In this document: positions 30,336 through 33,584 of the stretch, piece after piece
Position numbering within the stretch: position 1 is the first letter of the stretch
Layout of the letters: the number at the start of each line of letters is the position of its first letter
NCBI RefSeq assembly: GCF_900109525.1
Contig: NZ_FOAN01000001.1
Coordinates: 62,001 to 126,000 of the forward strand
DNA length: 64,000 nucleotides
DNA from: Allobosea lupini
GTDB lineage: Bacteria; Pseudomonadota; Alphaproteobacteria; Rhizobiales; Beijerinckiaceae
Direction of reading: 5' to 3'
Translations under genes and position numbers: made by a program
The notes under the pieces: generated by a model
Seen by the model: the letters and a program-made list of their open reading frames with translations, nothing else
What the model was told of the DNA's origin: nothing
Database searches by the model: none

Positions 30336-30530
30336 GCCGGTATGCGATTCTCTTCAAGCGGGCCCGAGCCGCGATGGGGCGCAGTAGCACGGCAATCGCA
30401 GCGGAAAAAGGGCGAGAGGCCGGTGAATGCCCGGGCTCGCACCGCAAGCGCGACGACGCTCCGTCGCCGGTCATGCGTTTCCTCGGATAGAGCCGGCATC
30501 GAGACGCATGCCGACCAGCGCTTTCGCTCT

Positions 30531-30573
30531 TGCGAACCGTTTGCATGTCTTTATCTTGCGAATGCACTGCAAG
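30531..30573 (+). promoter_or_regulatory. candidate Mur/MntR manganese boxes before mntH
   Basis: Two adjacent dyads precede mntH: TGCGAACCGTTTGCA at 30531-30545 (near-perfect palindrome, one mismatched pair) and CTTGCGAATGCACTGCAAG at 30555-30573 (CTTGC/GCAAG arms). They share the word TTGCGAA and resemble TGCAA-type manganese-responsive sites of alphaproteobacterial mntH and sitA promoters. The second ends 19 bases before the ATG. Confidence 0.6.
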
Positions 30574-30592
30574 AGCAGAATTGGGATCAGGC

Positions 30593-31939
30593 ATGGACGC
30601 TCGGGTCGAGAAGGTGCCCGCAGGCTGGCGCAGCGAGCGGGGCGAGGCTTCGCTGGCCGATGTCCATCGCTCGATCGCGGTGCGCAACTCGGGACCGGGC
30701 TGGCGCCGTGCCGCGGCCTTCGCCGGGCCGGGCTATCTCGTCGCCGTCGGCTATATGGATCCCGGCAACTGGGCGACCTCGATCGCAGGTGGCTCCAAGT
30801 TCGGCTACACGCTGCTGGTTGTCGCGCTGGTCTCCAACATCATGGCGATCGTGCTGCAGTCGCTCTGCGCGCGGCTCGCCATCGCGTCGGGGCGCGACCT
30901 CGCCCAGGCCTGCCGCGACGCCTTCCCCCGGCCCGTCGCCTATGTGCTGTGGTTCCTCGCCGAAACCGCGATCATCGCGACCGACATCGCGGAAGTGATC
31001 GGGACCGCGATCGGCCTCAACCTGATCTTCGGCATTCCGCTCGAGCTCGGCGTCATCATCACCGCGCTCGACGTCTTCCTGATCCTCTATCTGCAGCGGC
31101 TCGGGTTCCGCTGGGTCGAGGCGTTGATCATCACGCTGCTCGGCGTGATCGCGGTCTGCTTCGCCATCCAGATCGCGCTCGCCGATCCGAACTGGGGGCA
31201 GGTGATCCGCGGCTTTGCGCCGACCACCGAGATCGTCACCAATCCGGAGATGCTGTACCTCGCGCTCGGCATCCTCGGTGCGACGGTGATGCCGCACAAC
31301 CTCTATCTGCATTCGGGCATCGTGCAGACGCGCGCCTATGGCGAAACCTTGCCGGAGAAGCGTCAGGCGCTGAAATTCGCCACGATCGATTCGACGGTCG
31401 CGCTGATGTTCGCGCTGCTGATCAACGCCTCGATCCTGATCCTGGCGGCGGCGACCTTCTACAAGACAGGCCAGACCGAGGTCGCCGAGCTCGGCGACGC
31501 GCACAAGCTGCTTGGCCCGCTGCTGGGCGTGGCGATCGCGCCTACCCTGTTCGGCATCGCGCTGCTCTGCTGCGGCATCAACTCGACGGTGACGGCGACG
31601 CTCGCCGGCCAGATCGTGATGGAGGGGTTTCTCAAGATCAGGCTGGCGCCCTGGCTGCGCCGGCTGATCACCCGAGGCATCGCCATCATACCGGCGGCAG
31701 CGGTGACGATCTGGTACGGCGATTCCGGCACGGCACGCCTCCTGATCCTGACCCAGGTCGTCCTCTCGCTGCAGCTCTCCTTCGCGGTCTTCCCTCTGGT
31801 GATGTTCACTGCCGACAAGGCCAAGATGGGCGAGCTCGTCGCGCCGCGCTGGCTCATCGCCTTCGCCTATCTGATCGCGGTGGTGATCGCGGCGCTCAAC
31901 GTCAAGCTGCTGGTCGACTTTATCGGCGTGGCAGGTTGA
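30593..31939 (+). CDS. mntH: Nramp-family divalent metal (manganese) transporter
   Basis: This 448-residue inner-membrane H+-coupled Mn2+/Fe2+ importer has about 11 helices. TM1 carries DPGNWATS (the DPGN metal site), TM6 carries [13 protein letters not shown] (MPH), and TEMA-like transport residues are in [18 protein letters not shown]. The start at 30593 gives the normal MntH N-terminus; the frame is open to 30530. The tandem palindromes just upstream suggest manganese control. Its stop is one base from that of the convergent CGNR gene. Confidence 0.95.
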
Positions 31940-31940
31940 G

Positions 31941-32525
31941 TCAGCGCGCAGCGCGCCTGCCGCGGAAGCGGGCGACCTTGTCGCGGTTGCCACAGAGGCT
32001 CATCGTGCACCAGCGCCGGGTGTTGTTGCGGCCGCGATCGTAGAAGACGAGTGTGCAATCATCGGCGGCGCAGCGCTTTAGCCGCGCCGGCTCGGCCTCG
32101 CAGACGAAACGGGCGAGATCGAGCGAGATCTGGGCGGCGGGCCCGGCGGGATCGAACGCGAATCCGAGCGCGGGTCCATTGTCCCCGCGCTGCAGGACAT
32201 GGTGGCCGTTGAGGCCGGCCAACCGCCGATTGACCGACGCCAGCACTGCATCGGGCAGCGGCTGGCCTGCCTCAAGCGTCTCAAAGACCGGCCGCAGCTC
32301 CGCGCGCAGAGTGCGCAGATCGGTCATTGCCTCGCTTCCATCTCCGGCAGCATCGCCGAGCCCGGCTGCTCTCAGCCAGGCCAATGCCCGCTCGGGACCA
32401 TCGATCAACTCCTGGGGGCCGGTTTCGCCGGCGGGCGTGGTGTTGAGCAGATCCAGCCAGGTCGAGCCGCCGACGAATGGGAAGCCGTCGCGGAATTCGC
32501 TGGAAGCCTCTGTCGCAGACGTCAT
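31941..32525 (-). CDS. ABATE/CGNR zinc-finger putative transcriptional regulator
   Basis: This 194-residue protein has an N-terminal ABATE (DUF1470) domain (FVGGSTWLDLLNTTPAGETGPQELI, predicted to bind a small molecule). A C-terminal CGNR zinc finger follows: RCAADDCTLVFYDRGRNNTRRWCTMSLCGNRDKVARFR, with four Cys ligands. Such proteins are predicted regulators of stress or catabolic genes. It diverges from an alpha/beta hydrolase gene across a 108-base spacer that holds a strong dyad, so it probably controls that gene and itself. Confidence 0.9.
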   Translation of the reverse strand: MTSATEASSEFRDGFPFVGGSTWLDLLNTTPAGETGPQELIDGPERALAWLRAAGLGDAAGDGSEAMTDLRTLRAELRPVFETLEAGQPLPDAVLASVNRRLAGLNGHHVLQRGDNGPALGFAFDPAGPAAQISLDLARFVCEAEPARLKRCAADDCTLVFYDRGRNNTRRWCTMSLCGNRDKVARFRGRRAAR

Positions 32526-32571
32526 CTCGATCTCGGAGGGATATGTCGATCTGTAACCGCTTATTTATCGA

Positions 32572-32598
32572 TTGACAGGTGTCAAATCAAGTGACACC
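32572..32598. promoter_or_regulatory. operator: three TGACA half-sites in the CGNR/hydrolase spacer
   Basis: TGACA-GG-TGTCA (32573-32584) is a perfect dyad. Its right half continues into a second perfect dyad, GGTGTCA-N7-TGACACC (32578-32598). The sequence also contains a consensus -35, TTGACA (32572-32577), for the hydrolase. A protein bound here would block that promoter. The flanking CGNR protein is the obvious candidate. Confidence 0.6.
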
Positions 32599-32633
32599 GT
32601 TGAAGAAGATAAACAGAGGTTACACCACTCGCG

Positions 32634-33584
32634 ATGCCCCGTTCCCTCAGCCGCTTTGCCGCCATCACCCTCGCCGCAGGAGTTCTTGCCATGACGTCCA
32701 TTGCCGTCGCCGAGCCCGGCCCAACTCAGTTCCGCACCACCGAGATCGCCGGTACCGAGATCTTCTATCGCGAGGCCGGGCCGCAGGACGCGCCGGCGCT
32801 CCTGCTGCTGCACGGTTTTCCGTCCTCGTCGCACATGTTTCGCGGCCTGATTCCGCGCCTTTCGGGGCAGTACCGGGTGATCGCGCCCGACTATCCCGGC
32901 TTCGGCCATAGCGGCGCGCCGTCGCCGGCCGCGTTCGATTATCGCTTCGACCGCCTCGCCGAGGTGGTGGAAGCGCTGGTCGATCGGCTCGGGCTGAAGA
33001 GCTATGTGCTCTATCTGCAAGACTATGGCGGCCCGGTGGGCTTCCGCCTGGCGCTACGCCGGCCGGAGCGGGTGCGCGGGCTGATCGTTCAGAACGCGGT
33101 CGCCAATGCCGAGGGCTGGAACCCCGACATCACGGCGTCGATGGGGCCGTTCTGGCGCGAGCGCAATGCCGAGACCGAGAAGCCGTTTGCCGATCTGCTG
33201 AAGCCGGAAACGACGCGCTTCCAGTACACCCACGGTGCCGCGCGGGCCGAAAGGCTTTCGCCCGATGCGTGGACGATGGACCAGGCCGGGCTGGACCGAC
33301 CGGGCAATCGCGAGATCCAGCTGCGGCTGCTGCACGATTATCAGAGCAATTTCGCAGCCTATCCGGCCTGGCAGCGCTACCTCACCGAACGCCAGCCGCC
33401 GATGCTGATCGTCTGGGGGAAGAACGACCCGTTCTTCACGCTCCAGGGGGTCGACTATCTGAAGCAGCAGGTGCCGGGCGCCGAGGTGCATCTGTTCGAC
33501 GCCGGCCATTTCGCGCTGGAGACGCATGCCGGCGAGATCGCCGAACGCATCCGGGCGTTCATGGCGCGGTTGCCTGCGCGGTAG
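32634..33584 (+). CDS. alpha/beta hydrolase, haloalkane dehalogenase/epoxide hydrolase-like
   Basis: This 316-residue protein has a signal peptide (ending TSIAVAEPG), so it is probably periplasmic. The oxyanion motif is LLLHGFPSSS. The nucleophile is an Asp in LYLQDYGGPVGF (the dehalogenase/epoxide hydrolase form, not Ser). The acid is likely Asp in VWGKNDPFF and the base His in DAGHFALE. The substrate is unknown. It is controlled by a promoter with a TGACA dyad and faces the CGNR regulator. Its last 26 bases overlap a convergent MFS gene. Confidence 0.9.
   Translation: MPRSLSRFAAITLAAGVLAMTSIAVAEPGPTQFRTTEIAGTEIFYREAGPQDAPALLLLHGFPSSSHMFRGLIPRLSGQYRVIAPDYPGFGHSGAPSPAAFDYRFDRLAEVVEALVDRLGLKSYVLYLQDYGGPVGFRLALRRPERVRGLIVQNAVANAEGWNPDITASMGPFWRERNAETEKPFADLLKPETTRFQYTHGAARAERLSPDAWTMDQAGLDRPGNREIQLRLLHDYQSNFAAYPAWQRYLTERQPPMLIVWGKNDPFFTLQGVDYLKQQVPGAEVHLFDAGHFALETHAGEIAERIRAFMARLPAR

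Follow-up and report, generated by a model that had tools for sequence, protein, structure and literature searches.

Tandem TGTAACC-type dyads between a CGNR/ABATE regulator gene and a divergent hydrolase gene: a probable autoregulatory operator that accompanies CGNR genes across bacterial phyla

Introduction

Which DNA motif does a CGNR/ABATE regulator recognise, and is it contained in the spacer between such a regulator gene and a divergently transcribed hydrolase gene? The question is raised by a locus in the window (the whole stretch of DNA analysed here, 64,000 nucleotides in length, C15:62001-126000 of a Bosea-type genome), where a preliminary description had noted the sequence TTGACAGGTGTCAAATCAAGTGACACC at 32572-32598, read it as three TGACA half-sites that overlap the -35 element of the hydrolase gene, and proposed it as the operator of the CGNR protein. 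ABATE/CGNR proteins were called putative regulators in 2009 on the basis of one structure, the dimeric crystal structure of Jann_2411 (PDB 3h0n), which is the founding structure of the family (PMC2954205). Its authors put forward, as a proposal and not a measurement, that the treble-clef finger binds DNA and that the ABATE domain senses a ligand (PMC2954205). No DNA target, regulon or ligand was reported for Jann_2411 (PMC2954205). In the literature searched by family names and domain accessions, in which subscription papers were thinly covered, the 2009 structure paper was joined by passing mentions only, and we found no CGNR operator, regulon or ligand, in agreement with the earlier statement that no well-defined operator is known for these proteins. 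A search with the bare motif letters returned unrelated matches only, among those listed.

Results

The regulator gene occupies 31941..32525 on the minus strand and encodes a protein of 194 amino acids, which was identified by Pfam, by orthologue alignment and by a fold match to 3h0n. The ABATE domain (PF07336) scored 61.3 bits against a cut-off of 24.4 and the zf-CGNR domain (PF11706) scored 68.1 bits against a cut-off of 24, and the treble-clef finger has its four cysteines and the CGNR motif. In an alignment of 8 orthologues, Cys152, Cys157, Cys173 and Cys178 were invariant together with G179, N180 and R181, the CGNR motif being residues 178-181. When a structure model of the regulator (pLDDT 70, with the finger region below 50) was searched with Foldseek, 3h0n was the sole match below E 0.001 (E 1.1e-6, TM ~0.55), and by sequence the two proteins matched at E 7e-6 over the zinc finger. 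They share the two-domain plan and the four-cysteine finger, but Jann_2411 has CQNR where the regulator in the window has CGNR. A gene for an Nramp-type metal transporter (30530-31941) stops 1 bp from the end of the convergent CGNR gene.

The divergent gene, the presumed target, lies at 32634..33584 on the plus strand and encodes an alpha/beta hydrolase of 316 amino acids (Abhydrolase_1, 136 bits), with synteny retained in L001-L008 and in further orthologues; both gene calls of the preliminary description were borne out by Pfam. The N-terminus was judged by eye to resemble a signal peptide, and the nucleophile elbow was read from the sequence as QDYGG (residues 129-133) with Asp130, so that the protein is predicted to be an exported Asp-nucleophile hydrolase. 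Its nearest solved relatives are the haloalkane dehalogenases (E ~1e-25), which likewise have Asp at the nucleophile elbow. In these enzymes a halide-binding Trp usually stands beside the nucleophile Asp, whereas in the hydrolase of the window Asp130 is followed by Tyr, so that this mark of a haloalkane dehalogenase is missing.

The sequence TTGACAGGTGTCAAATCAAGTGACACC is present between the two genes exactly as had been described, and it is rare. If up to 3 mismatches are allowed, 0.02 occurrences of the composite TGACAGGTGTCA-N7-TGACACC are expected in 64 kb; one perfect site was observed (plus its own shifted reverse strand), and in the 6.13-Mb genome TTGACANNTGTCAA and GGTGTCA-N7-TGACACC occur once each, both only at this spacer. 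When CGNR/hydrolase spacers from other Bosea species, Sphingomonas, Sphingobium and Novosphingobium were aligned, the alignment was gapless over 73 bp, and the conserved element proved to be longer than described, extending from 32552 to 32624 and including the outer half-sites TGTAACC (32552-32558) and GGTTACA (32618-32624) that had been missed. This 73-bp array consists of four 13-bp half-sites with a TGTAACCGTTAAA-like consensus, alternating in orientation every 20 bp at offsets 0, +20 (reversed), +40 and +60 (reversed). As defined by the four-site alignment, these are S1 (TGTAACCGCTTAT, 32552..32564, plus strand), S2 (TGACACCTGTCAA on the minus strand, 32572..32584, with TTGACA as its inner end), S3 (TGACACCGTTGAA, 32592..32604, plus strand) and S4 (TGTAACCTCTGTT on the minus strand, 32612..32624). 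They combine into two tandem dyads, 40 bp apart, that both match TGWMACC-N19-GGTKWCA exactly and are both conserved in orthologues, namely O1 (TGTAACCGCTTATTTATCGATTGACAGGTGTCA, 32552..32584; matrix score 31.5) and O2 (TGACACCGTTGAAGAAGATAAACAGAGGTTACA, 32592..32624; matrix score 29.6), neither of which is assigned to a strand. The array starts 27 bp before the ATG of the CGNR gene and ends 10 bp before the ATG of the hydrolase gene. In 16 orthologous spacers, from Bosea to Sphingomonadaceae and down to a CGNR identity of ~40%, the 20-bp half-site spacing was invariant while the intervening letters varied; since a 20-bp step is about two helical turns, the half-sites should lie on one face of the DNA. 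Outer half-sites of the TGTAACC type and inner half-sites of the TGACACC type occur within one array, and the recognised letters are therefore not fully settled.

Two pairings of these half-sites had to be compared, the convergent TGTAACC-type dyad and the earlier reading, in which TGACA is the half-site, the protein binds GGTGTCA-N7-TGACACC as its dyad, and the -35 element supplies a third half-site with its own TGACA. The latter draws on letters that are exact and occur nowhere else in the genome and on an N7 distance that is preserved in close orthologues; nevertheless, it is hardly credible. The outer TGTAACC/GGTTACA pair is conserved to the same degree as the inner half-sites and the N19 spacing is constant, which rules out TGACA as the half-site. 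Nor is the third TGACA preserved as an independent half-site, as orthologues have TTGACA, TTGACT, TTTACA or TTGAAA at this place; these letters are instead the inner AA.T end of S2, and GGTGTCA-N7-TGACACC is merely the junction of S2 and S3, where two units 40 bp apart come together. Across the family, TAACC-like pairs upstream of CGNR genes were tallied by spacer length without a matrix; in 99 loci, which include repeats of one gene, the tally peaked at N19 (59 loci) and N18 (29 loci; control regions, 1 and 1). Several loci, such as L020, L095 and L109, have a single dyad only, and where dyads are paired the step from one to the next is mostly 39-43, is 46-58 in others, and is at least 65 in a few (97-123 bp among them). 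Because N18/19 is constant, single dyads occur and the dyad step varies, the unit is TGTAACC-N18/19-GGTTACA, usually present twice.

The preliminary description had named conservation of the dyad upstream of CGNR orthologues as one point on which its proposal would stand or fall. This comparison was carried out and the spacer passed it: the idea of a CGNR motif in this spacer held, among orthologues and family-wide, while the operator structure that had been given for it did not. For the family-wide comparison, arrays of the Bosea/Sphingomonadaceae type served as the sole training set for a matrix, which was then run on independent CGNR loci, of which 30 were picked by the zf-CGNR model alone from 398 Pseudomonadota genomes and others came from plasmids. 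A dyad was found at p<=0.005 relative to dinucleotide shuffles in 45 of the 60 CGNR upstream regions, and a matrix score above 12 was reached in 44/60, versus 0 of the control regions of the same loci. With the proteins grouped at 50% identity, TGTAACC-N18/19-GGTTACA was present upstream of 24 of 37 CGNR clusters, a count that includes a few training clusters, and in 0/37 for control DNA; in the other 13 clusters the long dyad was absent upstream of the CGNR gene, some having a short form and others nothing recognisable. The positives span at least six phyla and include Alpha-, Beta- and Gammaproteobacteria, Bacillota (Alicyclobacillus, Mesobacillus, Planococcus) and MAGs named Gemmatimonadota, Eremiobacterota and Planctomycetota, the Planctomycetota match being weak (score 13). 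Two N17 dyads are present at a Streptomyces locus whose divergent gene encodes an MFS protein, and at a Deinococcus locus GTAACT-N19-AGTTAC was seen by eye with a matrix score under the threshold.

The dyad tracks the CGNR gene and not the neighbouring gene. The divergent neighbours at dyad loci include dehalogenase-like hydrolases, other hydrolases, EamA, flavodoxin-like, SDR, NTF2-like and MFS proteins, as well as a periplasmic (ABC) binding protein. The CGNR gene follows the hydrolase gene on the same strand in Rhizobium daejeonense (L060) and in a Phyllobacteriaceae MAG (L036); these operon promoters were inspected because the operator model predicted dyads there, and two dyads (step 40 or 42) were found upstream of the hydrolase gene, at the operon promoter.

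In the 398 genomes, exact TGTAACC-N18/19-GGTTACA occurs at 16 sites. Half of them (8/16) are placed at the start of a CGNR gene, with the zf-CGNR domain 442-553 bp further on. Since a backwards control pattern gave 18 sites in the same genomes, exact sites away from CGNR genes are at background level; four of them sit within open frames of at least 350 codons. Within its own genome (6.13 Mb), TGWMACC-N19-GGTKWCA has two exact matches, O1 and O2, and the exact N18 dyad is found only before a CGNR paralogue at C14:234656, so that exact sites are present at two of the three CGNR genes of this genome and nowhere else. The third CGNR gene (L024) has no dyad. A wider regulon in this genome was rejected for now: allowing up to one mismatch in the N19 search added one site, C18:101563, which is G+C-rich, and the N18 search found none beyond the paralogue. 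At the paralogue (C14:234588-234617; loci L020 and L130) there is one N18 dyad only, and the divergent gene encodes a Peripla_BP_6 binding protein (branched-chain amino acid type); further genomes of the genus show this arrangement too.

As to promoter layout, a -35-like TTGACA of the putative hydrolase promoter (32572..32577, plus strand) is embedded in S2, and in 78% of motif-positive loci the best dyad has at least four of the six TTGACA letters in its right half. A weak -10 candidate, CACCGT (32595..32600, plus strand), was picked from the sequence 17 bp after TTGACA and inside S3. In Alicyclobacillus and Eremiobacterota a good -10 hexamer (TATGAT and TAGAAT, respectively) is found at the same distance of 17 bp, and Pantoea has one (CATAAT) at 16 bp. 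With so weak a -10 at the hydrolase gene, the promoter layout, and hence repression, is uncertain.

Discussion

The analysis shows a conserved motif of defined spacing that is tightly linked to CGNR genes in many phyla; direct binding, the dimer stoichiometry, repression rather than activation, and a ligand are what we infer. The spacer is quite probably an autoregulatory operator at which a CGNR dimer on each dyad represses both genes until a ligand of the ABATE domain releases it. As we picture it, one dimer would occupy each dyad with one zinc finger on each GTAACC half-site, O1 would cover the -35 element of the hydrolase gene and the promoter region of the CGNR gene, and O2 would cover the -10 element, start and leader of the hydrolase gene. 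The occupied array should block both promoters, because it reaches to within 10 bp and 27 bp of the hydrolase and CGNR start codons, respectively, and the bound protein would thus shut off the hydrolase gene and its own gene (autorepression). A small molecule recognised by the ABATE domain, plausibly one that the hydrolase consumes or produces, would then free the repressor.

The sign of the regulation could be otherwise, with CGNR as an activator or dual regulator at the same operator. Two sites with unlike half-sites could serve dual control, but an array that begins upstream of the -35 element, spans the putative -10 and stops 10 bp short of the hydrolase ATG would exclude RNA polymerase, and the half-site itself contains TTGACA, so that we regard activation as improbable. 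It is very unlikely that the dyads belong to an unrelated regulator that controls CGNR genes, or that they are a promoter or RNA element. Dyads of the TGTAACC type do look like the targets of other dimeric repressors in general, and that CGNR proteins bind them is what we infer; however, the sites track CGNR genes in at least six phyla despite differing neighbours and strand arrangements, and elsewhere in the genomes the exact pattern is found only at the background level. An RNA element fits poorly with O1 and O2, which are imperfect palindromes (TGTAACC with GGTGTCA): their mismatches would interrupt an RNA stem, yet the spacing is preserved.

Read as a CGNR operator, the locus has in common with divergent autoregulated pairs of the LacI/TetR type a divergent target, a common spacer, an operator over both promoters and a single local site. 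It differs from them in its C-terminal treble-clef zinc finger, where LacI/TetR-type regulators use a helix-turn-helix, in the unusually long N18/19 between 7-bp cores, and in the tandem dyads.

Extended to the family, the view that we favour by a narrow measure is that CGNR/ABATE proteins would be bacteria-wide local autoregulatory repressors whose treble-clef finger reads GTAACC half-sites, arranged mostly as tandem dyads with two spacings that differ by one helical turn (N18/19 and, in some subfamilies, N8/9), the promoter -35 and perhaps the -10 being built from half-sites. A family-wide operator would make the hypothesis that CGNR proteins are regulators directly testable, would allow sequence alone to predict the target of many members, namely the gene that is divergent or co-operonic, and would supply DNA for co-crystals and for ligand hunting by a simple reporter.

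The shorter spacing was seen at four loci that have short dyads and no good long dyad, namely ACTAACC-N8-GGTTAGT (L085), TAACC-N8-GGTTA (L088 and L107) and ACACC-N9-GGTGT (L009). On these few loci, the short dyad, one helical turn shorter, may represent a second binding geometry. No long dyad was found at the CGNR genes of Streptomyces plasmids L074, L124 and L126, which lie next to, and downstream of, ABC-F genes, or at their relative L125, which has another neighbour. At the gene start of all four, TCACC-N9-GGTGA is conserved and touches the start-codon region, and in L074, L124 and L126 a GTCACC lies ~19-20 bp beyond it.
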